DNA from: Moraxellaceae bacterium
GTDB lineage: Bacteria > Pseudomonadota > Gammaproteobacteria > Pseudomonadales > Moraxellaceae
DNA: 64,000 nucleotides
Direction: 5' to 3'
Assembly: GCA_020697295.1 (NCBI GenBank)
Contig: JAJFBF010000012.1
Location: forward strand, 1-64,000
Shown here: one piece after another, positions 10,936 through 58,782 of the stretch
Layout: each line of letters starts with the position of its first letter
Numbering within the stretch: position 1 is the stretch's first letter
Notes under the pieces: generated by a model
Seen by the model: the letters and a program-made list of their open reading frames with translations, nothing else
Database searches by the model: none
Told to the model about the DNA's origin: nothing
Program-made: the position numbers and the translations under genes

Positions 10936-11463
10936 TCAATGCCCGTGGTGGTGCGCGTGCGGATCCGCCGCCTCGACATCCACAGCCAACGGCCTCACCT
11001 CAGCATCGATGACGATCAGGCCAGCCTTGCGAAAGCGCAGCGTCAGCGGCACCCGTTCGCCCGGCTTGAGGGCGCGCTTCATGTTGATGAGCATGATATG
11101 GCGCCCCCCCGGCTGCAGGCGCAGCTCGGCATCCGGAGCCAGCTCCATGGTGGCCTCGCGGCGCATGCGCGTGAGGCCCTTTTCCTGGCGCATCTCATGG
11201 ATCTCGGCGACTTCGGCCACCGGGGTCTCCACCGCGACCAGGGTGTCGGCGCGCGAGCCGTTGCGCAGGACGAGATAGGCGGCGTTGTGGCGTGCCGCAG
11301 GAGGCGCCTCGGCGATCCAGGCCTCGCTCACGCGAGGGCCGCCGGCCACCGTGGCCGGGGCTATTTTCATCGCAGGGGCGGATGGCACCGGCACGGTCGC
11401 GGCAGGCCCTGCCACGACCATCCCCGGCAGGAGGAGCAGCAACGGCATCAGGGGTACATTCAT
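10936..11463 (-). CDS. Periplasmic copper chaperone, PCu(A)C family
   Basis: A 175-residue exported protein with an N-terminal signal (MNVPLMPLLLLLPGMVVAG). The PCu(A)C copper site is readable as HEMRQEKGLTRM followed by PGGRHIMLINM, the H-x-M pattern that binds Cu(I). The C-terminus HAHHHGH is an extra metal-binding tail. Such proteins deliver copper to cytochrome c oxidase subunit II. ATG 11463 follows a strong GGAGGAG; an upstream ATG at 11484 is less likely. The gene lies 33 bp after the SCO gene. Confidence 0.92.
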   Translation of the reverse strand: MNVPLMPLLLLLPGMVVAGPAATVPVPSAPAMKIAPATVAGGPRVSEAWIAEAPPAARHNAAYLVLRNGSRADTLVAVETPVAEVAEIHEMRQEKGLTRMRREATMELAPDAELRLQPGGRHIMLINMKRALKPGERVPLTLRFRKAGLIVIDAEVRPLAVDVEAADPHAHHHGH

Positions 11464-25342: not shown

Positions 25343-29825
<4,483 letters not shown>

Positions 29826-39615: not shown

Positions 39616-41511
39616 ATGTCCCGATTCGACAAAAATCCCTTCACGCTGAAAGACAACCAGCAGGAAGCAGCCCTGTTCCGGCGCCGCGCCACCGTGGCCT
39701 CGGTCTTCGTGCTGCTCATGTTCGTGTTGCTCTTCGCGCGTTACTTTCACCTGCAGGTGAACGAGTTCGACACGTATTCCACGTTGTCGGAGAACAACCG
39801 CGTCCATCTGGAGGCTATCTCCCCCCCGCGTGGCTTCATCTACGACCGCAAGGGCACCCTGCTCGCCGACAACCAGCCCACCTTCACGCTCACCGTGAAC
39901 CGCCAGCAGGTACCGGACATCGAGGCCACCCTGCAGCGCCTGGTGCCGGTGCTGCAGCTCACGCCCGACGACATCACGCGCTTCCGCAATCGCCTCAAGG
40001 TGACGCGCAAGTTCGAGGAAGTCCCGGTCAAGCTGCGCCTCTCGCACGACGACATCGCTCGCTATTCGGAAATGAAGCACGAACTGCAGGGCGTCACCAT
40101 CAACGTGGAGCTTTCGCGCTTCTATCCGCACGGTGACCTTTTCGCCCACGCCATCGGCTACGTGTCGCGCATTTCCGAGAAGGAGGAAGCAACGCTGGAC
40201 CCGGTGGAATATGCCGGCACCAACCTGATCGGCAAGATCGGCATCGAGAAATACTACGAGGCGCTGCTGCACGGCAAGGCCGGCTACCAGCACGTCGAAA
40301 CCAATGCCCATGGCAAGCTCATCCGCGTGCTCAAGCGCACGCCGCCGGTGCGCGGCAACGACCTCAACCTGCATCTCGACTACCAGCTGCAGAAGATCGC
40401 GCACGACCAGCTCGCCGGGCGGCGCGGCGCCGTGGTCGCCATCGACCCGACCACCGGCGGCGTGCTGGCCTTCGTCAGCAACCCGAGCTTTGATCCCAAC
40501 CACTTCGTGGCCGGCATTCCCTACAAGATCTACGCCGGCTACCGCGACCACCTCGACCGCCCGCTGTACAACCGCGCGCTGCAGGGCATCTATCCGCCGG
40601 GCTCCACCATCAAGCCCATGGCGGCCATGGGCGTGCTGCACTACGGGCTGGCCACCTGGCAATGGAGCCTAGCGGACCGCGGCTTCTTCACCCTGCCCGG
40701 CGACTCGCACCAGTTCCGCGACTGGAAGAAGGGCGGCCATGGCATGGTCGACATGCACAGGGCCATCGTGCAGTCCTGCGATACCTATTTCTACACAATG
40801 TCCGACCGCATGGGCGTCGATCGCTACCACGACTGGATGAAGCATTTCGGCTTCGGCGAGAAGACCGGGATCGACCTGGTGGACGAGAAGCGCGGCTCCC
40901 TGCCTTCGGTGGCCTGGAAGCGCGAGCGCCTGAAGGCGCCCTGGTATCGCGGCGAGATGATGTCGGTCGGCATCGGCCAGGGCTACTTCACGGCGACACC
41001 GCTGCAACTGGCCATGGCCACGGCCATCGTCGCCAACGGCGGCAACCACATCCGTCCGCACCTGCTGCGCACCACGACCGGCACACGGCCCTTCGCGGTG
41101 GTCAACCAGCCCGACTACCGGGTGCCCTTCAGCGGCAGTGCCGAGGACTGGGCGCTCATGCGCACCGCCATGCGCGACGTGGTCCACGGCGATGGCGGCA
41201 CGGCGCGCGCCACCGGCTACAAGATCAAGGGCTATGAAATGGCCGGCAAGACCGGGACGGCGCAGGTGAAGGGCATCAAGCAGGGCGCGAAGTACGACGA
41301 GAAGACCGTCGGCGAGCGCTTCTGGGACCACGCCTGGTTTGTCGGCTTTGCCCCGGCGGAGAACCCGCGCATCGCGGTCGCCGTGCTGGTCGAGAACGGC
41401 AAGCACGGCTCCAGCGTGGCGCCCATCGCCAAGGCCCTCTTCGACTACGAGATCATGGGCCTCCTGCCCCCGCCGCCGGCGCCGGTGGCGCCCACGGAGA
41501 CCGACGAGTGA
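39616..41511 (+). CDS. mrdA: Penicillin-binding protein 2 (elongation transpeptidase)
   Basis: A 631-residue class B PBP that cross-links peptidoglycan in the elongasome with RodA. One N-terminal membrane helix (about 28-46) precedes the pedestal domain (PPRGFIYDRKGTLLADN). The transpeptidase motifs are PGSTIKPM with S330 and K333, a SCD motif in VQSCDTYFY, and KTGTAQ. The sequence before the ATG lacks a Shine-Dalgarno. rodA overlaps its stop by 4 bp. Confidence 0.97.
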   Translation: MSRFDKNPFTLKDNQQEAALFRRRATVASVFVLLMFVLLFARYFHLQVNEFDTYSTLSENNRVHLEAISPPRGFIYDRKGTLLADNQPTFTLTVNRQQVPDIEATLQRLVPVLQLTPDDITRFRNRLKVTRKFEEVPVKLRLSHDDIARYSEMKHELQGVTINVELSRFYPHGDLFAHAIGYVSRISEKEEATLDPVEYAGTNLIGKIGIEKYYEALLHGKAGYQHVETNAHGKLIRVLKRTPPVRGNDLNLHLDYQLQKIAHDQLAGRRGAVVAIDPTTGGVLAFVSNPSFDPNHFVAGIPYKIYAGYRDHLDRPLYNRALQGIYPPGSTIKPMAAMGVLHYGLATWQWSLADRGFFTLPGDSHQFRDWKKGGHGMVDMHRAIVQSCDTYFYTMSDRMGVDRYHDWMKHFGFGEKTGIDLVDEKRGSLPSVAWKRERLKAPWYRGEMMSVGIGQGYFTATPLQLAMATAIVANGGNHIRPHLLRTTTGTRPFAVVNQPDYRVPFSGSAEDWALMRTAMRDVVHGDGGTARATGYKIKGYEMAGKTGTAQVKGIKQGAKYDEKTVGERFWDHAWFVGFAPAENPRIAVAVLVENGKHGSSVAPIAKALFDYEIMGLLPPPPAPVAPTETDE

Positions 41512-48051: not shown

Positions 48052-48402
48052 TCAGGCCAGCACGCAGACCCGACCTTCGCTCACCTGCACCGCCCACACC
48101 GGCAGGCGCACGCTGGCATCCTCCAGGCACTCGCCGGTGGCGAGATCGAAATGCTGCTTGTACAGCGGCGAGGCCACCACCTTGCGCCCCTTAAGGTCGC
48201 CGGTGAGGCCGCGCGAAATCACGTTGGCCCCGGAAAAGGGATCGTGGTTGCCAACGGCGAAGATGGCGCCGTCGCGCAGGCGGAACAGCGCCACCTGCTG
48301 GCCATTCACCAGGGCACAGACGCCCAGCCCGGGCTTGAGGTCGTCAAGCGCACAGATGTCGACAGCCTGGAGGGGTTCGGCAAGGTTGCTGCGAGCGTTC
48401 AT
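48052..48402 (-). CDS. nirD: Assimilatory nitrite reductase small subunit NirD
   Basis: A 116-residue Rieske-fold protein that lacks the Cys/His cluster ligands, as NirD subunits do. VALFRLRDGAIFAVGNHDPFSGANVISRG (positions about 37-65) and VVASPLYKQHFDLATGECLED are the conserved blocks. It pairs with NirB to reduce nitrite to ammonium with NADH. CGAGGAGAA precedes ATG 48402. It is 163 bp after nirB; that gap has a hairpin with one bulge (48421-48446). Confidence 0.93.
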   Translation of the reverse strand: MNARSNLAEPLQAVDICALDDLKPGLGVCALVNGQQVALFRLRDGAIFAVGNHDPFSGANVISRGLTGDLKGRKVVASPLYKQHFDLATGECLEDASVRLPVWAVQVSEGRVCVLA

Positions 48403-48565: not shown

Positions 48566-51115
48566 TCAGGCCGGCACCGTCACGGTGCCGATCCGGCCCT
48601 GCTTCTCGGCCGTCGTGGCCGGGCGCACCTGGCCGCGCTCCGGCACCAGCACGACGTTGTCGTCGGGCGCGTCGCTGTTCACGAAGTGCGAGAAGCGCTT
48701 CAGCTTCTCGGGATTCTCAAGCGTGGACTTCCATTCGCACTGGTAGGTGCTGACCACGTGCGCCATGTCGGCCTCGAGATCCGCGGCCAGGCCCAGCGAA
48801 TCGTTGATGACCACGTCTTTGAGATAGGCCAGGCCACCTTCCATGTTGTCGCGCCAGACGCTGGTGCGCTGCAGACGGTCGGCCGTGCGCACGTAGAACA
48901 TCAGGAAACGGTCGATGTACTGGATCAGCGTGCCGGTATCGAGGTCGCCGGCCAGCAGTTCGGCGTGACGGGGCTTCATGCCGCCGTTGCCGCAGACATA
49001 GAGGTTCCAGCCTTTCTCGGTGGCGATCACGCCGACGTCCTTGCCCTGCGCCTCGGCGCACTCGCGGGTGCAGCCGGACACCGCGAACTTGATCTTGTGC
49101 GGTGCGCGCAGGCCCTTGTAGCGATTTTCCAGGTGGATGGCGAGGCCGACCGAATCCTGCACGCCGTAGCGGCACCAGGTCGAGCCGACGCAGGATTTCA
49201 CCGTGCGCAGCGACTTGCCGTAGGCATGGCCGGTCTCGAAGCCGGCGTCGATAAGTTCCTTCCAGATCAGCGGCAGTTGCTCCACGCGCGCGCCGAAGAG
49301 GTCGACGCGCTGGCCGCCGGTGATCTTGGTGTAGAGGCCGTACTTCTTCGCCACCATGCCGACCGCGATCAGGCCCTCCGGCGTGACCTCGCCGCCGGCC
49401 ATGCGCGGCACCACGGAGTAGGTGCCGTCCTTCTGCATATTGGCCATGAAGTAGTCATTGGTGTCCTGCAGGCCGGCGTGTTCGTCCTTGAGAATGTAGT
49501 CGTTCCAGGTCGAGGCCAGGATGGAACCGACGGTGGGCTTGCAGATGTCGCAGCCATCGCCCTTGCCGTGGCGCGCGATCATGTCGTCGAAGGAACGGAT
49601 GCCTTCCACCTTGATCAGGTGAAAAAGTTCCTGGCGCGAGAAAGGGAAGTGCTCGCAGAGATCCTTCTTGACCTCGACGCCGCGCTTGCCCAGTTCGCAC
49701 TTCAGCACCTGACCGATGAGGGCGCTGCAGCCGCCGCAGGTGGTGGCGGCCTTGGTCGCGGCCTTGATGTCGGCCACTTCCAGCGCGCCGGCATCGATGG
49801 CGCCGCAGATGTCAGCCTTGCTGACGTTGTTGCAGGAGCAGATCTGCGCCGTCATGGGCAGCGCGTCGACGCCCACGCCGACTTCGCCGGTGCCGTCGCG
49901 CACCGGCAGGATCAGCACATCCGGATATTCCGGCAGGTCCATGTTGTTCAGCATCAGCTGCAACAGGCCGCCGTAGGCATCGACATCGCCCACCATGACC
50001 GCGCCCAGCAGCTTCTTGCCGTCGGCGGACACCACGATCTTCTTGTAGATATCCTTGGCGTCGTCGATGTAGTAGTAGCTGTGCGCGCCGGGCGTGGCGC
50101 CCATGGCATCGCCGATGGAGCCCACGTCCACGCCCATCAGCTTGAGCTTGGTGGACATGTCGGCGCCGGTGAACTGCTTGGCGCCGCTCGCGGTCACGTG
50201 GTCGGCGACCACTGTCGCCATGTGGTAGCCGGGGGCGACCAGGCCGTAGATGCGGCCGCTCCACAGCGCCACCTCGCCGATGGCGTAGATGTCCGGATCC
50301 GAAGTCTGGCAGTGATTGTTCACCACGATGCCGCCGCGCGGGCCCATCTCCAGCTCGGCCTGACGACCGAGCTCGTCGCGCGGGCGGATGCCGGCGGAGA
50401 AGAGTATCAGGTCCGTCTCGAGCTTGTTGCCGCAGGCAAAGTTCATGACATGGCGGTGGGTCTCGCCATCGACGATTTCCTTCGTATTCTTCTCGGTGTG
50501 CACGCGCACGCCCAGCGCCTCGATCTTGCGCCGCAGCACCTTGGCGCCACCGTCGTCGAGCTGCACCGCCATCAGACGCGGCGCGAACTCCACCACATGC
50601 GTTTCCAGGCCCAGGTCGCGCAGGGCCTTGGCGGCCTCCAGGCCGAGCAGGCCGCCGCCCACCACCACGCCCACCTTCGACACGGCGGCGCCGGCCTGGA
50701 TGGCCTCCAGGTCCTCGATGGTGCGGTAGACCAGGCAGTGCTCGCGGTCGTGGCCAGGCACCGGCGGCACGAAGGGATAGGAGCCGGTGGCCAGCACCAG
50801 CTTGTCGTAGGCAATGGACTCGCCGGCGGCGGTGGTAACGGTCTTCGCCGCCTTGTCGATGGCCACGGCCTTCGTATTCAGCTTGAGCGCAATGCTCTTC
50901 TCGTTAAAGAAGTCGCCCTCGACCAGGCTGAGATCCTCTGCGGTCTTGCCGCTGAAATACGAGGAGAGATAAACACGGTCGTAGGCGGCGCGCGGCTCCT
51001 CGCAGAGCACGACGACCTCGAAGGCCTCGTGTCCGTTCCGGTCGGCCAGCGCCTCCAGGAACTTGTGGCCGACCATGCCGTTGCCGACAACGACGATACG
51101 GGACTTGCTGCTCAT
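48566..51115 (-). CDS. nirB: Assimilatory nitrite reductase large subunit NirB
   Basis: An 849-residue cytoplasmic enzyme with siroheme, FAD and two cluster types. VVVGNGMVGHKFLE starts the FAD domain, and VVVGGGLLGLEAAK the NAD(P)H domain. ICSCNNVSKADICGAI with TCGGCSALIG are BFD [2Fe-2S] cysteines. The siroheme/[4Fe-4S] ligands are CVGSTWCRYG and VSGCTRECAEAQGKD. It reduces nitrite to ammonium by six electrons. ATG 51115 follows GGAGG; six upstream codons are rejected. Its leader contains the two-hairpin ANTAR-type element. Confidence 0.97.
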   Translation of the reverse strand: MSSKSRIVVVGNGMVGHKFLEALADRNGHEAFEVVVLCEEPRAAYDRVYLSSYFSGKTAEDLSLVEGDFFNEKSIALKLNTKAVAIDKAAKTVTTAAGESIAYDKLVLATGSYPFVPPVPGHDREHCLVYRTIEDLEAIQAGAAVSKVGVVVGGGLLGLEAAKALRDLGLETHVVEFAPRLMAVQLDDGGAKVLRRKIEALGVRVHTEKNTKEIVDGETHRHVMNFACGNKLETDLILFSAGIRPRDELGRQAELEMGPRGGIVVNNHCQTSDPDIYAIGEVALWSGRIYGLVAPGYHMATVVADHVTASGAKQFTGADMSTKLKLMGVDVGSIGDAMGATPGAHSYYYIDDAKDIYKKIVVSADGKKLLGAVMVGDVDAYGGLLQLMLNNMDLPEYPDVLILPVRDGTGEVGVGVDALPMTAQICSCNNVSKADICGAIDAGALEVADIKAATKAATTCGGCSALIGQVLKCELGKRGVEVKKDLCEHFPFSRQELFHLIKVEGIRSFDDMIARHGKGDGCDICKPTVGSILASTWNDYILKDEHAGLQDTNDYFMANMQKDGTYSVVPRMAGGEVTPEGLIAVGMVAKKYGLYTKITGGQRVDLFGARVEQLPLIWKELIDAGFETGHAYGKSLRTVKSCVGSTWCRYGVQDSVGLAIHLENRYKGLRAPHKIKFAVSGCTRECAEAQGKDVGVIATEKGWNLYVCGNGGMKPRHAELLAGDLDTGTLIQYIDRFLMFYVRTADRLQRTSVWRDNMEGGLAYLKDVVINDSLGLAADLEADMAHVVSTYQCEWKSTLENPEKLKRFSHFVNSDAPDDNVVLVPERGQVRPATTAEKQGRIGTVTVPA

Positions 51116-51178
51116 ACCCACCTCCGAATGCACCCGCTGTGCGGGAGTTGCGTTCGACCCGATGGCTTTCCGGCAAGG

Positions 51179-51257
51179 AAAAGGCGCAAGCGGGCCGTAT
51201 CACTGCAAGCCCCGTTGCCTGCGAATCTCGATCAGAAGCCGGCAGCAGCGTTGCTGC
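51179..51257 (-). promoter_or_regulatory. Candidate two-hairpin ANTAR (NasT/NasR) antitermination leader of nirB
   Basis: On the minus strand, hairpin P1 (51257-51242) has arms GCAGC and GCTGC around loop AACGCT. After 19 nt, hairpin P2 (51222-51205) has arms GCAGGC and GCTTGC (one G-U) around loop AACGGG. Both are hexaloops with A1 and G4, the known ANTAR signature. P2 conflicts with a terminator: its GGCAACGGG pairs, with bulges, to CCCGCTTGCGCC (51194-51183), followed by TTTT (51182-51179). The nirB start is 63 bases further on. Expected behaviour: nitrate-responsive NasT or NasR holds P2 and lets transcription into nirBD. The regulator gene is not in this window. Confidence 0.65.
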
Positions 51258-51300
51258 ACGACAGAAGAATTGCCGCCCCGAATACACGACGGCGCGTTGC

Positions 51301-51327
51301 GGAATGAGCGAGAGCCTCCCTCATTCC
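51301..51327. repeat. Inverted repeat at the nasA 3' end
   Basis: GGAATGAG-N11-CTCATTCC, 8-bp arms without a T run. It lies 35 bp after the stop codon of the out-of-frame NasA domain. It may be an RNA-stability hairpin or an operator for nirB. Confidence 0.6.
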
Positions 51328-54002
51328 GACCGCCCCCCTGTCAGGGAGACGGCCCTGAAACTCAGGCGGAAGCCTGCGCCTGCCCTGCCTGGCAGCTCGC
51401 CAGGATCACCTTCAATTCCGGCTGGCAGGAGCCGCAATTGCTGCCGGCCTTGCAGCGTTGGCCGATGGCCGCCACCGACTCCAGCGTATGCGTGGCGATG
51501 GCCCGGCGAATCGTTTTCTCGCCCACACCAAAACAGGCACAAGCCGCGTTCAGGGAGGCTGCCACTGTCCGGGCCGATAAAGCACACCGACTGCAACCGT
51601 CCTTCGGCAATGACGGCCTGGCGATACACCCCACGGGCAAGGTCCACATACTCAAGCGACTCAACGGACACACCCGCCAGGTGCTGCTCACGGGAATACT
51701 TAAGCAATTCGTTTGCCAACTCCTGCCGATCCGCCGGAGCGGACTGCCCGGCCAGCTCGAAGCGCCAGAATTTCCCGCCCCGGATGGCCACCGCATAGTC
51801 CGCCGCCGGCAGTGGCAGGGCCACCGTACTGAAGAGGAAGCCATGCCACTGCGCCCCAAAACGGCGCACACGGACCGGCGTGTGCTTGCTTTCGGGCTGA
51901 CCCGAGACCGGATCCACCGCCGGGTTCACCACCGCGCCCACACGCGACGCGCTGGCCAGCACGCCGGTCCAGTGCATGGGCATGAAAACCGTGCCGGGCG
52001 CCTGGTCGGCCGTCAGTTCGGCGCGCGCCCGCGCCAGCCCCCAGCGGCTTTCCAGCTCCACCACCTCGCCGACGCTGATGCCCAGGCCTGCGGCATCGTC
52101 GGGGTGCAGGGCGCAGAAGGGCTCGCCGATATGCTGCAGCAGGCGTGCCGCCAGGCCGGTACGCGTCATGGTGTGCCACTGGTCGCGAATGCGCCCGGTG
52201 TTGAGAACGAAGGGATAGTCCTGATCCGGCGCGTGGACCGGGCCGCGCGCCCCCACCGCCAGGAAGCTGGCGCGACCATCCGGCGTGAAGAAGCCTCCCT
52301 CGCCAAAAAGGCGGGCCGGGCCTTGCGCCTCACCCTGGCGCCGCGGCCACTGAAAGGGTTCGAGATCACGGTAGCCCGCGACATCGAGCGCGGCCACGCC
52401 ACCGATATCGAAGTCGCGACGGCCGTGGGCCTCGTCATTCTCGAAGGCGGAAAGGGCGGCATGCTCGGCAAAAATATCGGCCGGCGAGGCAAAGCTGAAG
52501 GCGTCGGCAAACCCCATGCGCTTCGCCACCTCGCAGACGATCCACCAGTCGGCCCGGGCCTCGCCGGGCATGGGCAGGAAGGGCCGCTGCCGGGAAATGC
52601 GGCGCTCGGAGTTGGTGACGGTGCCGTCTTTCTCGCCCCAGCCCAGGGCCGGGAATTTCACGTGGGCCAGGCGCGTGGTGTCGGTATCGGCGATGCAGTC
52701 GGACACCACCACGAGTTCACAGCGCTGCAGCGCGGCGCGCACGCGGTCGGCATCGGGCAGCGACACCACCGGATTCGTCGCCAGGATCCAGATCGCCTTG
52801 ATGCGTCCGTCGTGCACGGCCTCGAACATGTCCACGGCCTTGTGCCCGGGCGTGGCTGCCACGGAGGGCGCGCCCCAAAAACGCTGCACCCGCTCGCGAT
52901 GCACGGGATTCTCGATCTCCATGTGCGCCGCCAGCATGTTGGCGAGCCCGCCCACCTCGCGCCCGCCCATGGCATTGGGCTGGCCGGTGAGCGACAGCGG
53001 GCCGCTGCCGGGTTTGCCGATGCGGCCGGTGGCCAGATGGCAATTGAGGATGGCATTGACCTTGTCGGCGCCGGCGGAGGACTGGTTCACGCCCTGCGAA
53101 TACAGCGTCAGCGTGCGCGGCGTGGTCGCGAACCAGCTGAAGAACCGTTCCAGGTCCAGCGCATCGAGACCAAGAGTGGCGGCGAGATGGGGGATGTGGT
53201 TGTCCTGGGCGACGGCGGTGGCCAGCGCCGCGGAAAAGCCGCGGGTATGCGCGCCAATAAAGGCATCGTCCAGGACGCCGTGCGTGGCGAGATAGGCCAG
53301 CAGCGCATTGAACAGCCGCACATCCTCGCCCGCCTTCACCGGCAGGTGCAGGTCGGCCAGCTCGCAGGTAGCGGTGCGACGCGGGTCGATGACAACGACG
53401 CGCAGGCCCGGGCGCCGCTCCTTCTCCGCCTTGATGCGCTGGAACAGCACCGGATGGCACCAGGCAGCATTGGAGCCGGTCAGCACCACGAGATCCGCCA
53501 GCTCGAGATCCTCGTAGCAGTTGGGCACGGTGTCGCTGCCAAAGGCGCGCTTGTGGCCCGCCACGGAAGAGGACATGCACAGCCGCGAGTTGGTATCGAT
53601 ATTGGCGGTGCCAATAAAGCCCTTCATCAGCTTGTTGGCGACGTAATAGTCCTCAGTCAGCAACTGGCCCGAGGCATAGATCGCCACCGCCTCCGGACCG
53701 TGCTCGCGAATGATGCGGGCAAACTCGCCGGCGACATGGCCGAGCGCCTCATCCCAGGTCCGGCGCTCGCCGCGGATCTCCGGATGCAGCAGGCGGCCCT
53801 CCAGCGCCACGGTTTCACCGAGCGCCGCGCCCTTGACGCAAAGGCGACCGGCATTCGCCGGATGCGATTCATCACCGGCAATGGTCACCGTGCGCGCTTC
53901 CACATCGGTCACCGTGGCCTTGACGCCACAGCCGACGCCGCAATACGGACAGGTGGTGCTGACGCTACAGGGGGTGGCCTCAGCCAGGGGTAGCCTCTTC
54001 AT
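51321..54002 (-). CDS. nasA: Assimilatory nitrate reductase catalytic subunit (C-terminus frameshifted)
   Basis: 893 codons in the uninterrupted frame; a molybdopterin enzyme that reduces nitrate to nitrite in the cytoplasm. CPYCGVGCGV with a later CVKG gives the four [4Fe-4S] cysteines. NTNSRLCMSSSV contains the probable Mo-ligand cysteine, TGRIGKPGSGPLSLTGQPNA is the cofactor-binding segment, and the C-terminal MopB-CT domain is intact. After LPERG (about 51545) the frame turns into unrelated sequence, while the expected [2Fe-2S] domain continues in another frame to 51362. It starts inside the upstream reductase gene (23-bp overlap). It is second of the minus-strand operon. Confidence 0.9.
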   Translation of the reverse strand: MKRLPLAEATPCSVSTTCPYCGVGCGVKATVTDVEARTVTIAGDESHPANAGRLCVKGAALGETVALEGRLLHPEIRGERRTWDEALGHVAGEFARIIREHGPEAVAIYASGQLLTEDYYVANKLMKGFIGTANIDTNSRLCMSSSVAGHKRAFGSDTVPNCYEDLELADLVVLTGSNAAWCHPVLFQRIKAEKERRPGLRVVVIDPRRTATCELADLHLPVKAGEDVRLFNALLAYLATHGVLDDAFIGAHTRGFSAALATAVAQDNHIPHLAATLGLDALDLERFFSWFATTPRTLTLYSQGVNQSSAGADKVNAILNCHLATGRIGKPGSGPLSLTGQPNAMGGREVGGLANMLAAHMEIENPVHRERVQRFWGAPSVAATPGHKAVDMFEAVHDGRIKAIWILATNPVVSLPDADRVRAALQRCELVVVSDCIADTDTTRLAHVKFPALGWGEKDGTVTNSERRISRQRPFLPMPGEARADWWIVCEVAKRMGFADAFSFASPADIFAEHAALSAFENDEAHGRRDFDIGGVAALDVAGYRDLEPFQWPRRQGEAQGPARLFGEGGFFTPDGRASFLAVGARGPVHAPDQDYPFVLNTGRIRDQWHTMTRTGLAARLLQHIGEPFCALHPDDAAGLGISVGEVVELESRWGLARARAELTADQAPGTVFMPMHWTGVLASASRVGAVVNPAVDPVSGQPESKHTPVRVRRFGAQWHGFLFSTVALPLPAADYAVAIRGGKFWRFELAGQSAPADRQELANELLKYSREQHLAGVSVESLEYVDLARGVYRQAVIAEGRLQSVCFIGPDSGSLPERGLCLFWCGRENDSPGHRHAYAGVGGGHRPTLQGRQQLRLLPAGIEGDPGELPGRAGAGFRLSFRAVSLTGGRSE
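51362..51547 (-). pseudogene. Out-of-frame C-terminal BFD [2Fe-2S] domain of NasA
   Basis: In the frame shifted one base forward of nasA, 61 codons read AACACFGVGEKTIRRAIA, then VAAIGQRCKAGSNCGSC and a Gln/Ala tail. The four cysteines (CxC and CxxC) are a complete BFD-type cluster site. In homologues I recall this domain following SLPER after roughly 30-40 residues; here it begins at once. A deletion with frame change, or a sequence error in a short-linker form, would both explain it. Confidence 0.8.
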
Positions 54003-55206
54003 GCTCTGATTTCCCGAACAGCAGGGATTCGCGCATGGACGCCACATTGCGTTGCTCACGAATCAGGTCGAAGTACCAGACACCATCGTTGGTGTCCCCG
54101 TACAGGACTGAACCGATAACGCGATCATTCTTGATCAGGAGGCGCTTGTAGACGCCTCCTGCCGGATCGCGCAAAACCAGGGTTTCCGCATCGGCATCGG
54201 TGAAGTCGCCGGCGGAATAGAGATTGACGCCGCTCACCTTGAGGGTGGTCGCGGTGGCGCGTTGCACGAAGCGGGACACGCCCTGCTCCGCCAGATGATT
54301 GGCACAGACCCGGGCCTGCTCGAAGAGCGGGGCCACCAGGCCGAACAAGGCGCCGCGGTGCTGCACGCACTCGCCGACGGCATAGATGCAGGGATCGAAA
54401 GTCTGCAGGGTGTCATTGACGAGGATGGCCTTGTCCACCTGCAGCCCGATCTTTTTCGCCAAGGCCACATTGGGGCGGATGCCGACCGCCATCACCACAA
54501 GATCCACCGGCAGCTCGCTGCCATCCTTGAACTCGATGCGCTCGAGATGCTCGCCCGTCGCGCCGTGCACGATCTGCGCACTGATGACACCGAGGCGGAA
54601 GTGCATGCCGCGCGCCTCCAGGGTATCACGCAGCATCGTGGAAGCTTCAGGATCGAGCTGGCGATTGAGCAGGTGGGGCATGTCGTGGATGACCGTCACT
54701 TCCATGCCCTGCTTGAGCAGGCCATTGGCGGCCTCGAGCCCGAGCAGGCCACCCCCGATCACCGCCACGCGCTTCTTGTGCGCCGCGGCACGCACCATGC
54801 GCTCCACGTCGTGGATGTCGCGAAAGCTCAATACATCCGGGTGCTGGTGGCCCGGCAGGGGAATAATGAAAGGAGTGGAGCCGGTCGCCAGTACCAGACG
54901 GTCGTACGGCAGCACCTGCCCGTCCGCCAGCACCACTTCCCGCTGCTTGCGCCGCACATCAGTCACCGTGAAGCCGGCCAGCAAGGTCACGCCGTGCTCG
55001 GCATACCAGCTCTCGGGGTGGGTGACGATGTCCTCGAAACGCTTTTCGCCCGCCAGCACCGGCGACAGCATGATGCGGTTATAGGCCACCACCGGTTCGC
55101 TGGAAATCACGGTGATCGCATACCGGTCCGGCGCCAGCGCGAGCAACTCCTCCACCGTCCGGATACCGGCCATGCCGTTGCCGATAACGATCAGTCTGCG
55201 CTTCAT
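53980..55206 (-). CDS. FAD/NAD(P)H-dependent reductase for nitrate assimilation (NasB-like)
   Basis: A 408-residue flavoprotein similar to the N-terminal half of NirB. LIVIGNGMAGIRTVEELL starts the FAD domain and VAVIGGGLLGLEAANGLL the NAD(P)H domain; YAVGECVQHRG is the second FAD contact. It has no BFD, siroheme or cluster cysteines of its own. It probably passes NAD(P)H electrons to NasA, presumably through the [2Fe-2S] domain that is now out of frame. ATG 55206 gives the MKRRLIVIGNG start. First gene of the operon, behind a sigma-54 promoter. Confidence 0.85.
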   Translation of the reverse strand: MKRRLIVIGNGMAGIRTVEELLALAPDRYAITVISSEPVVAYNRIMLSPVLAGEKRFEDIVTHPESWYAEHGVTLLAGFTVTDVRRKQREVVLADGQVLPYDRLVLATGSTPFIIPLPGHQHPDVLSFRDIHDVERMVRAAAHKKRVAVIGGGLLGLEAANGLLKQGMEVTVIHDMPHLLNRQLDPEASTMLRDTLEARGMHFRLGVISAQIVHGATGEHLERIEFKDGSELPVDLVVMAVGIRPNVALAKKIGLQVDKAILVNDTLQTFDPCIYAVGECVQHRGALFGLVAPLFEQARVCANHLAEQGVSRFVQRATATTLKVSGVNLYSAGDFTDADAETLVLRDPAGGVYKRLLIKNDRVIGSVLYGDTNDGVWYFDLIREQRNVASMRESLLFGKSEHEEATPG

Positions 55207-55250: not shown

Positions 55251-55266
55251 TGCAACGCCTGTGCCA
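55251..55266 (-). promoter_or_regulatory. Sigma-54 promoter of the nitrate/nitrite reductase operon
   Basis: The minus strand reads TGGCACAGGCGTTGCA: a GG-N10-GC core with TGGCAC and TTGCA matching the RpoN -24/-12 consensus closely. The start would be near 55240, giving a leader of about 34 nt before ATG 55206. This implies control by an activator such as NtrC under nitrogen limitation. Confidence 0.8.
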
Positions 55267-55445: not shown

Positions 55446-55461
55446 TGGCATATCGCTTGCA
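55446..55461 (+). promoter_or_regulatory. Sigma-54 promoter of the nitrate transporter gene
   Basis: TGGCATATCGCTTGCA has the GG-N10-GC spacing with TGGCA and TTGCA. The start would be near 55472, giving a leader of about 75 nt before ATG 55547. It faces away from the other sigma-54 promoter, 180 bp distant; the gap is the expected place for shared enhancer sites. Confidence 0.75.
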
Positions 55462-55479
55462 GTAGCTCCCTCACATCTC

Positions 55480-55503
55480 GCCGGCAGCAACGAGGCTACT
55501 GGC
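55480..55503 (+). promoter_or_regulatory. AACG-loop hairpin in the nitrate transporter leader
   Basis: Arms GCCGGCAGC and GCTACTGGC (one C-A mismatch, one G-U) hold the hexaloop AACGAG with A1 and G4, as in both nirB leader hairpins. A second hairpin, GGCAA-GGT-TTGCC at 55507-55519, does not fit the ANTAR loop rule, and no clear terminator follows. It could be half of an ANTAR site or a single-hairpin variant. Confidence 0.4.
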
Positions 55504-55546
55504 GAAGGCAAGGTTTGCCATCCATTGCTTTCGTCCGGAGTTCGCC

Positions 55547-57025
55547 ATGTCTGTCGCCCGCAAACCGTTTCCGCTATTCACCATCGCCGAGCCACGCATC
55601 CGCGTGCTGCATTTTACCTGGCTCGCGTTCTTCATCACCTTCCTCATCTGGTTCGCCCATGTCTCGCTCATGCCTTTCATCAAGGCGGAGCTGCTGCTGA
55701 CCGACATGCAGGTGAAGGCCTTCCTGATCCTCAACGTGGCACTGACGATTCCAGCGCGCATCCTGATCGGCATCCTGGTCGACCGCTACGGCCCGCGCCT
55801 CAGCTACAGCCTGCTGCTCGCGGTCTGCGGCGTGCTCTGCATCGGCTTTGCAATGGCGCAGACCTTCGAGCAGCTCGCGGTCATGCGCTTCCTTCTCGGC
55901 CTCACCGGCGCCGGCTTCGTCATCGGCATCCGCCTCGTCAGCGAGTGGTTCCCGGCGCGCGAGCTCGGCATTGCCGAGGGCATCTACGGCGGCTGGGGCA
56001 ATTTCGGCGCGGCCATCGCCAAGATCGGCATGCCGGTGCTGGCGGTCAGCGTCTTCGGCGGCGAATTCGGCTGGCGCTACACCGTGGCGCTGATGGGCCT
56101 GATCGCCATCATCTATTCGGTGATTTTCTACCGCAACGTCAGCGACACGCCCAAGGGCGCCACCTATTTCAAGCCGAAGAAGGCGGGCGGCCTGGAAGTG
56201 ACCAGCAAGCGCGACCTTGTCTTCTATCTGCTGACCAACCTGCCCATCTACCTCATCCTCTACGTGCTGGCCTGGCGCCTGGCCCCAGCCGGCCTCAACA
56301 TCATCTCGCAGGACTTCGCCGTCCTCTGCTATGGCGTCATCACCTTCCTGCTGGTGTGGCAGTCCTGGAAAATCTGGCAGGTAAACCGCCACCTGATGAC
56401 CGAGACGGTGCCGCTGCAGCAGCGTTACCGCTTCAAGCAGGTCGCCATCCTCAACCTCGCCTATCTCGCCTGCTTCGGCTCCGAGATCGCCGTGGTGTCC
56501 ATGCTGCCCATGTTCTTCGGCGACACCTTCCACCTCTCGGCCACCGCCATGGGCCTCATGGCGGGCTCCTTCACCATCATGAATATCGTGGCGCGCCCCG
56601 CGGGCGGCTATATCTCCGACCGCATCGGCCGGCGCAAGGTGCTGGTCACCTGCCTGGCCGCGCAGACCGCGGGCTACCTGCTGCTGTCCAACGTGAACGA
56701 AAGCTGGGGCATCGTGCTGGCCATCGGCGTCACGCTGATCACCTCCGTATTCGTGCAGGCGGCCTGTGGCGCCGTGTATTCGATCGTGCCGCTCATCCAG
56801 CGCCGCATGACCGGCCAGATCGCCGGCATGGCGGGCGCCTACGGCAATGTCGGTGGCGTGCTCTTCCTCACCGTCCTTTCCTTTGTGAGCCCGAAGGTGT
56901 TTTTCTGCGTGATCGCCGGCATGTCGGCCCTGGCCTTCTTCGCCGCCAACTTCATCGACGAGCCCCGCGGCCATATGGTCGAAGTCGACGAGCACGGCAA
57001 CGTGCAAATGATCGCGGTGGAGTGA
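55547..57025 (+). CDS. NarK/NasA-type MFS nitrate transporter
   Basis: A 492-residue major-facilitator protein of the nitrate/nitrite porter family, 12 helices. The two nitrate signatures are present: GGWGNFGAAIAKIG in helix 5 and AGAYGNVGGVLFLTV in helix 11. The substrate arginines are likely in MRFLLGLTGAG and IVARPAGGYISDR. A short acidic C-terminal tail ends it. Together with NasA/NirBD it implies nitrate uptake for assimilation. A PP2C-kinase fusion starts 8 bp after its stop. Confidence 0.94.
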   Translation: MSVARKPFPLFTIAEPRIRVLHFTWLAFFITFLIWFAHVSLMPFIKAELLLTDMQVKAFLILNVALTIPARILIGILVDRYGPRLSYSLLLAVCGVLCIGFAMAQTFEQLAVMRFLLGLTGAGFVIGIRLVSEWFPARELGIAEGIYGGWGNFGAAIAKIGMPVLAVSVFGGEFGWRYTVALMGLIAIIYSVIFYRNVSDTPKGATYFKPKKAGGLEVTSKRDLVFYLLTNLPIYLILYVLAWRLAPAGLNIISQDFAVLCYGVITFLLVWQSWKIWQVNRHLMTETVPLQQRYRFKQVAILNLAYLACFGSEIAVVSMLPMFFGDTFHLSATAMGLMAGSFTIMNIVARPAGGYISDRIGRRKVLVTCLAAQTAGYLLLSNVNESWGIVLAIGVTLITSVFVQAACGAVYSIVPLIQRRMTGQIAGMAGAYGNVGGVLFLTVLSFVSPKVFFCVIAGMSALAFFAANFIDEPRGHMVEVDEHGNVQMIAVE

Positions 57026-57033
57026 GCGCCACC

Positions 57034-58782
57034 ATGACCCAGGCCCTGCCCGTTTCCAGCCGGCCGGCCGCCGGCCTGCAGGTCCGCGCCGCCCAGGCCA
57101 GCAGCGCCGGCCGCAAGCCCGAGAACGAGGACGCCGTCGGTATCCGCCTGCCAGAGGCGCCCCTGCTGGAGCGCAAGGGCGTGGCGCTGGTGCTCGCCGA
57201 CGGTGTCAGCGGAGCCGGCGACGGCCGCCACGCGGCGGAGGTCTGCGTGCAGGGCTTCCTGTCCGACTATTACTCGACACCCGACACCTGGTCGGTGCGC
57301 ACAGCGGGGGAACGCGTGCTCTCGGCACTCAACCGCTGGTTGCACGGACAAGGCCAGCAGTACTCGCAGACCCATCGCGGCTTTTTCACCACCTTTGCCG
57401 CGCTGGTACTGCGCTCGCAGTCCGTGCATCTCTTCCATGTGGGAGACAGCCGCATCTGGCGACTGCGCCAGGGCACGCTGGAACCGCTCACCACCGATCA
57501 CGCCGCGCGAGTCGGCGGCGGCAAGACCTGTCTCACCCGCGCCCTCGGCATGGACCACCAGGTGGACATCGATTTTCGCATCACCGATGCGCGGGCAGGC
57601 GACGTATTCCTGCTCACCACCGATGGCATCCACGAATTCCTCGCGCACGCCCGACTGAAAACCCTGCTGGCCAGCGCGGGCGCCGAACCGCAGGCCTGCT
57701 GCGCGGCCATTGTTGATGCGGCCCTCACAGCTGGCAGCGATGACAACCTTTCCTGCCAGCTGCTGGTGGTCGATGCCCTCGCGGCGCCCGAAGCCGACGA
57801 CAGCCGCCTGCAGGCCGCCACCCTGCCCCTGCTCCCGGACCTGGCGCCTGGCCAGCGGCTGGACGGCCTCTGCGTGGAGGCCGAACTGCATGCGACAGCT
57901 CGCAGCCAGGTCTACCGGGTACGCGACGAGGCCAGCGGCTGCCGCATGGTGCTGAAGACCCCCTCGCGACTCTGCGCCGGCGACGAAACCGCCCTCGCCC
58001 GCTTCGCCATCGAGGATTGGCTGGGCCAGCGCTTCGATCACCGCCACCTGATTCGCGGCCTGCCCGCGCCCGCGCAACGCACAGGCCTTTACCTGCTGCA
58101 GGAACACCTGGAAGGCGAGACGCTGGCCGCCTGGCGCCAACACCAGCCGTCACCGCCTCCGGTACAGACCGTGGTGGCGCTGGCGACGCAGGTGGTGAAG
58201 GGGTTGCAGGCGCTGCACCGGCGCGAGGTGCTGCACCAGGACCTGAAGCCGGACAATCTTTTCCTCTGCGCCGACGGCACCCTCAAGATCATCGACTTCG
58301 GCTCGGCGTCAGTGGCGGGCCTCGACGAGCGTCCCGCGCAGGACTGTCCGGGCGCCGCCGAATACGCGGCGCCCGAATGCATTCTCGGACTGGCCCGCGA
58401 CGAGCGCGCCGACCAGTTTTCACTGGCGGTCACGCTTTATGAACTGCTCACGGCCAGCCATCCCTTCGGCGACCCCTATGCCCGCGCCCGCACGCTCTTC
58501 GATTTCCAGCGCCTGGGCTACCGCAGCGCCTGCCGCGTCAATCCGCATGTCCCGCTATGGCTGGACGCGGCCCTGCGCAAGGCACTCTCCCTCTCCCCGG
58601 AGGCCCGCTACGACTCGCTCAGCGAATTCCTGGCCGACCTCCGCCGCCCCAACCCCGCCCTCGCCCCGGTGACCGCCCGCCCCTGGCTGGAACGGGATCC
58701 GGCCAGCTTCTGGCGTGTGCTCGCCCTGGCCATGACCGGCCTCGCGTTGATCGAGCTGGTCTGGATTTGCCGGCCCTGGTAA
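57034..58782 (+). CDS. Bifunctional PP2C phosphatase / Ser-Thr protein kinase
   Basis: A 582-residue fusion. Residues about 15-250 are a PP2C phosphatase: PENEDAVG, ADGVSGAGDG, HVGDSRIWR, TTDGIHEFL and SDDNLS hold the metal aspartates. Residues about 280-540 are a kinase: VLKTP (K308), HQDLKPDN (D403, N408; HQD instead of HRD), DFG at 421-423 and APE at 446-448. The ATP loop lacks the glycines of GxGxxG. A final membrane helix is at about 562-578. Such fusions recur beside nitrate transporters in proteobacteria; the target is unknown but transport or reductase control is likely. Confidence 0.9.
   Translation: MTQALPVSSRPAAGLQVRAAQASSAGRKPENEDAVGIRLPEAPLLERKGVALVLADGVSGAGDGRHAAEVCVQGFLSDYYSTPDTWSVRTAGERVLSALNRWLHGQGQQYSQTHRGFFTTFAALVLRSQSVHLFHVGDSRIWRLRQGTLEPLTTDHAARVGGGKTCLTRALGMDHQVDIDFRITDARAGDVFLLTTDGIHEFLAHARLKTLLASAGAEPQACCAAIVDAALTAGSDDNLSCQLLVVDALAAPEADDSRLQAATLPLLPDLAPGQRLDGLCVEAELHATARSQVYRVRDEASGCRMVLKTPSRLCAGDETALARFAIEDWLGQRFDHRHLIRGLPAPAQRTGLYLLQEHLEGETLAAWRQHQPSPPPVQTVVALATQVVKGLQALHRREVLHQDLKPDNLFLCADGTLKIIDFGSASVAGLDERPAQDCPGAAEYAAPECILGLARDERADQFSLAVTLYELLTASHPFGDPYARARTLFDFQRLGYRSACRVNPHVPLWLDAALRKALSLSPEARYDSLSEFLADLRRPNPALAPVTARPWLERDPASFWRVLALAMTGLALIELVWICRPW

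Follow-up and report, generated by a model that had tools for sequence, protein, structure and literature searches.

The window, the whole stretch of 64,000 nucleotides analysed here, carries a nitrate-assimilation cluster on its minus strand, with narK divergently oriented beside it. The gene order is nasC-nasA-[switch]-nirBD. The element that is the subject of this report is a pair of short hairpins (P1 and P2) with a competing fold. An earlier note placed it in the nirB leader; it is not at the head of the operon but internal, between nasA and nirB, and would therefore separate nirBD from nasC-nasA. The features are as follows.

48052..48402 (-): nirD
48566..51115 (-): nirB, which follows the switch
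51179..51182 (-): TTTT 3' of the competing hairpin (sequence, relatives)
51185..51223 (-): competing hairpin, a putative weak terminator sharing the P2 5' arm (sequence, folding)
51205..51222 (-): P2, the antiterminator hairpin, GCAGGC[AACGGG]GCTTGC (sequence, shuffles, relatives)
51242..51257 (-): P1 hairpin, GCAGC[AACGCT]GCTGC (sequence, shuffles, relatives)
51321..54059 (-): ORF for a nasA-like assimilatory nitrate reductase, lying upstream of the switch
51703..51718 (-): TGGCAAACGAATTGCT, a candidate sigma-54 site internal to nasA (one mismatch; suggestive)
53980..55206 (-): the cluster's first gene, for a nasC-like FAD/NAD(P)H reductase
55251..55266 (-): sigma-54 site TGGCACAGGCGTTGCA before the cluster (consensus, no mismatch)
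55446..55461 (+): sigma-54 site TGGCATATCGCTTGCA toward narK (consensus scan, relatives)
55478..55505 (+): narK-leader hairpin TCGCCGGCAGC[AACGAG]GCTACTGGCGA, a possible further NasT site (relatives)
55503..55533 (+): alternative narK-leader helix CGAAGGCAA/TTGCTTTCG, adjoining a putative ribosome site (weak)
L002 11172-11316 (-), on contig C107 of the same genome: ANTAR-type leader between nasT and nrtA

The frame of the nasA ORF is broken near its 3' end, and the C-terminal domain, in another frame, ends at 51362. Relative to three members of the genus (G002, G003 and G007), a stretch is missing at about 51530-51600 (-) together with the frame change. It sits before the C-terminal [2Fe-2S]-type domain and represents either an assembly error or a real mutation.

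Both minus-strand hairpins proposed in the earlier note, with hexaloops AACGCT and AACGGG, are found in the sequence. Each loop has A at position 1 and G at position 4, in agreement with the rule for ANTAR-target RNA loops; the dual-hairpin rule and its association with nitrogen genes have been described (PMC3369931). The P1-P2 linker is 19 nt, and the nirB ATG is at 51115. Actinobacterial ANTAR RNAs, which act by translational repression, have linkers of about 2-25 nt (PMC8164766), a range that includes the nirB-leader value. The overlap of P2 with the 5' arm of a competing hairpin, also proposed earlier, holds: CGCAGG..CGGG pairs with CCCG..CTTGCG, and CC and then TTTT follow. The competing hairpin is favoured on predicted energy (-16.5 vs -11.7 kcal/mol with P2 kept), and it was absent from the output of a simple terminator scan with a loop limit of 8. 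Folding also predicts a further hairpin around the nirB ribosome site (window 51110-51178, minus strand) in the genus leaders.

The statistics of this single sequence are modest. Shuffled sequences folded as well as P1 in 2 of 200 cases and as well as P2 in 11 of 200; the P1-P2 pair arose in 1.5% of 200 shuffles of the 260-nt stretch under a looser rule and in none under a stricter one. Folding stability is ordinary both for the 211-nt leader (z -0.94) and for the terminator segment (z -0.27, equalled by 77 of 200 shuffles). A similar dual-hairpin scan of both strands of the 64-kb window passes five other pairs, four of them at 25652 and 31359 on the plus strand and at 41176 and 41144 on the minus strand. 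The fifth, at 54097/54052 (-), falls within nasC over the codons for DTNDGV and was discounted as coding DNA. Rfam scans gave nothing credible in the window, in 50700-51700 (E up to 10) or in the nasT-nrtA stretch. The ANTAR covariance search, suggested earlier as a check on the region, thus returned no match, a result that is uninformative because Rfam also misses this genome's canonical nrtA leader.

Conservation, which had been named beforehand as a test, carries the case for the hairpins. The comparison comprised 49 genomes including this one (G000), picked by NirB score and availability from a pool in which 96 of 97 genomes had any NirB match; lower scorers were left out. The main scan required two A1/G4 hexaloop hairpins with a linker of 5-45 nt, at most 260 nt before nirB, and expectations were taken from dinucleotide shuffles. 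A pair precedes nirB in 10 of the 39 ANTAR-bearing genomes, against 0.1 expected, and in 0 of the 10 ANTAR-free genomes, against 0.03 expected. Six of the positives are members of the genus (G000, G001, G002, G003, G004 and G006) and four belong to two sister genera (G012, G020, G037 and G046). In G007 and G027 a separate scan recovers P2, and P1 was recognized by eye with one G-G mismatch. When these are included, the pair is present in all seven readable genus genomes and in all five sister-genus genomes examined; two of the nine genus members fall outside this count, G005 being fragmented and G008 yielding nothing NirB-like better than E 4e-34. G002 and G004 nearly duplicate each other. Each of the ten scan-positive genomes, as well as G007 and G027, has one ANTAR match. 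The main scan fails in 29 of the 39 ANTAR-bearing genomes, including G007 and G027. No such pair precedes nirB in G024 and G045, which share the gene order, nirB following closely on nasA.

Pairs were counted on hairpins registered by hand, since MAFFT misplaced P1 in G002, G004 and G007. P2 pairs 1-6 are standard in every one of the twelve genomes, pairs 2 and 3 varying between G-C and A-T, and P1 pairs 1-5 are standard in 12, 10, 12, 12 and 11 of 12; the hairpins were chosen by the loop rule, so that the 12/12 loop count is not independent, the stem pairs being less affected. The stems thus covary across the twelve genomes. Linkers span 16-32 nt in the ten scan positives and exceed 25 nt in four (G002, G004, G020 and G012). 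The two hairpins before nirB are real, as is confirmed by their conservation in relatives rather than by the single-sequence figures. In a wider set, limited to the best 80 of at least 592 loci (best identity 71%), nasA directly precedes nirB in none, and a dual-hairpin match was found in five (L102, L122, L158, L161 and L171); this test took in the 450 nt ahead of nirB and relaxed the linker limit to 110 nt, and some contigs were short.

The terminator fares less evenly. All seven genus members have a competing hairpin that is built on the 5' arm of P2 and is stabler than the P2 fold. The T run reads TTTT in five of the seven genus rows, including G000, TTTTTT in G001 and TTT in G006 and G007; it is TTTT or shorter in every genus member except G001, and short or broken in six of seven. 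None of the five sister genomes has a run of four T directly behind P2, although G046 has one 96 nt further on. Termination is therefore not common to all hairpin carriers. Of the terminator ending in TTTT proposed in the earlier note, the hairpin and the T residues stand, but the run is weak in the genus and missing behind P2 in the sister genomes.

The ANTAR regulator expected elsewhere in the genome was found. A single gene gives a PF03861 match (E 5.9e-19), and its product, P0001, aligned with its relatives, is a receiver-ANTAR protein of the NasT type with 191 residues and PF00072 and PF03861 domains. The nasT gene lies on contig C107 (L002 11571-12146, minus) before nrtA, which is followed by two genes recognized by eye as encoding an ABC permease and an ATPase. 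The assembly is 5% contaminated; nasT and nirB share one contig in G002 and G004, about 15-16 kb apart, which disfavours nasT as a contaminant. The nasT-nrtA leader holds a sigma-54 site and a second pair of hairpins: P1, CTCC[ACTGGC]GGAG, at 11303-11316, and P2, GGGAC[AATGGC]GTCCC, at 11203-11218, the latter overlapping a strong terminator with nine T. The P1-P2 spacing of 84 nt is far above published linkers. The P2 form GGAC[ANTGGY]GTCC recurs in 10 of the 11 other genus and sister-genus genomes (the G020 leader being outside the stretch viewed), CGGAC[AACGGC]GTCCG stands at this place in G024 and G045, and G085 has no match.

The usual arrangement places nasT and nasS side by side. No NasS-like protein was found in G000: none of its proteins is an NrtA-like cytoplasmic sensor free of a signal peptide, and the only PF13379 match is NrtA itself, with an RR-x-FL Tat-type signal motif. 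The RR-x-F-L/I motif is present in all 15 NrtA proteins compared. There is one PF13379 match each in G002, G003, G004 and G006, one weak match in G005 and none in G008; eight occur in G001 and two in G007, all beyond the first being much weaker. Other relatives did yield a PF13379 protein in this search, its start less than 100 nt behind the ANTAR domain, for example G009, G017, G022, G035, G053, G064, G065, G072, G086 and G089. A diverged NasS or an assembly gap in G000 is a possible cause of the missing match. The earlier note had nitrate as a second requirement for nirBD expression; no NasS being found in the genome, this claim is left with no identified nitrate sensor. The ANTAR loop may instead amplify nitrogen starvation, nasT having a sigma-54 site of its own.

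That nasT site, 53-109 nt upstream of the gene, was found in all seven genus members and in four of the five sister genomes. The cluster itself was proposed to be sigma-54-driven, and the exact consensus before its first gene points the same way: TGGCACAGGCGTTGCA, some 45 nt ahead of nasC, recurs in every one of the seven genus members and in four of the five sister genomes. Within the window, matches to the sigma-54 consensus with at most two mismatches number 27 against 38.9 expected, so that weaker matches carry no weight alone. Sigma-54-like sites were also seen between P2 and nirB in two sister genomes (TGGCACGACTTTTGTA in L012 of G046 and TGGCATGACTCTTGTA in L051 of G037); RNA begun there would be without the switch, the sites being downstream of the hairpins.

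The nirB leader is best read as an ANTAR-target RNA, a NasT-controlled attenuator of nirBD, with a probability of roughly 0.7. NasT binding, termination, promoter use and NtrC control are parts that we infer from sequence. The proposed mechanism runs as follows. (i) RNA would arrive from the sigma-54 promoter before nasC, and perhaps from another within nasA. (ii) Free NasT would bind both A1/G4 hexaloop hairpins on the nascent RNA, holding P2. (iii) With P2 held, its 5' arm would be unable to pair with 51185-51194. (iv) Without NasT, the competing hairpin would form and RNA polymerase would stop, at least partly, near 51179. (v) NasC and NasA would then be made whenever nitrogen is short, and nirBD would need NasT as well. 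Such an attenuator, of the NasT type and located within a nitrate-assimilation cluster, would uncouple the two enzymes, nitrite reductase and nitrate reductase. The conserved pair and the NasT gene favour the earlier claim of attenuation by ANTAR antitermination, and the weak T run tells against it; the step at the nirB leader may be one of partial attenuation or of post-transcriptional action.

The last possibility corresponds to an alternative in which the hairpins are a NasT target affecting how the nirB message is translated or how stable it is, with TTTT incidental. The weak T run in the genus, the retention of the hairpins by five sister genomes that lack it and, in the genus leaders, the predicted hairpin that surrounds the nirB ribosome site are all in its favour, and translational ANTAR RNAs are known from Mycobacteria (PMC8164766). 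Against these points stand the competing hairpin, stabler than the P2 fold throughout the genus in a classic antiterminator layout, and the strong terminator of the nrtA leader; on balance a purely message-level role is unlikely. It is highly improbable that the hairpins are due to chance or serve another role without NasT, such as intercistronic mRNA stability. The figure of 1.5% of shuffles under the looser rule, the five further pairs that pass a similar scan in the window and the whole-leader z of -0.94 speak for such a reading. Yet A1/G4 hexaloops are kept in twelve genomes as the stems change, allowing for the selection of hairpins by the loop rule, and the ten pairs against 0.1 expected have no counterpart among the ANTAR-free genomes.

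A further alternative accepts the ANTAR element and places it on a separate nirBD unit, transcribed from the internal nasA sigma-54 site; it is tentative and somewhat doubtful, and is compatible with NasT-controlled attenuation rather than exclusive of it. By pattern, TGGCAAACGAATTGCT is found in six of seven genus members, with TGGCCGATGAATTGCT at the same place in G006. The site is made of minority codons (TTG 74/521 Leu, GCA 76/772 Ala) while neighbouring residues vary, which suggests an internal sigma-54 promoter within nasA. On the other hand it is coding DNA, codon diversity is also low at KFWRFEL, a conserved stretch nearby, and the site is absent from the sister genera although they have the hairpins.

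The attenuator reading assigns the element to a known type of RNA switch, within which its internal position and the missing NasS are the unusual features. The NasS-NasT system has been described (PMC3795266); in P. denitrificans nasT is under NtrC, and NasS is present there (PMC5424462). Action of NasT on nirBD, NalA and c-di-GMP are covered by a review (PMC12830290). As that review outlines it, the Pseudomonas nalA leader (P. aeruginosa nirBD-PA1779-cobA; P. putida) likewise couples NasT antitermination ahead of nirBD with transcription from a sigma-54/NtrC promoter. It heads its operon, however, with nitrate reductase after it, whereas the position here is between nasA and nirB; the Pseudomonas system is also described with a NasS partner, and none was found in this genome. 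The Klebsiella nasF leader likewise places an A1/G4 hexaloop hairpin and a terminator before nitrate-assimilation genes (PMC3369931), but its regulator NasR senses nitrate itself via a NIT domain, in contrast to the receiver-ANTAR protein found here. EutVW of Enterococcus likewise acts on dual hairpins, which stand ahead of eutP, eutG, eutS and eutA in a single pathway (PMC3369931); pathway and signal are different, and linkers are 5-12 nt vs 19 nt here. In Bradyrhizobium diazoefficiens, NasT hairpins likewise precede narK and a nitrite reductase gene, in the leaders of narK, bjgb and nirA (PMC6759348), but the gene order is different, nasS-nasT is present and the nitrite reductase gene is nirA rather than nirBD. 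No report of NasT acting without NasS, or of such an element between nasA and nirB, was found in searches of open-licence papers.

The narK leader (window 55462-55549, plus strand) suggests, weakly, a possible translational NasT switch. The divergent sigma-54 site toward narK is present in 14 of 14 genomes examined, and just behind it a hairpin with an AACGRN loop is found in 12 genus and sister-genus genomes; the automatic scan flagged G000 only, the other 11 being recognized by eye. By pairing, this hairpin can compete with a helix beside the ribosome site. In a shuffle test of 11 leaders (G004 excluded as a near copy), the longest pairing to the region of the ribosome site was equalled in 1, 6 and 19 of 300 shuffles for G000, G003 and G002, respectively, and in the remaining leaders 16-139 of 300 were as good. 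The longest narK pairing differs from the proposed helix in G001, G003, G006 and G037.

An extension of the attenuator reading, fairly unlikely in our view, would have the genus NasT working without NasS and reading the nrtA and nirB terminators and the narK ribosome-site helix, either as an amplifier of starvation or in response to another signal, e.g. c-di-GMP. It leans on the sigma-54 sites at nasT, nasC-nasA-nirBD, narK and nrtABD. If it is true, one ANTAR protein acts on both transcription and translation, with no nitrate gate. A clade with NasT and no detectable NasS makes what NasT senses alone a testable question. The twelve leaders can also seed a model of NasT RNAs, Rfam having matched neither the window nor the nrtA leader. 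Directly behind narK, at about 57040-58782 (+), an ORF comprises by eye a PP2C-like part followed by a protein-kinase-like part, a phosphatase-kinase fusion.
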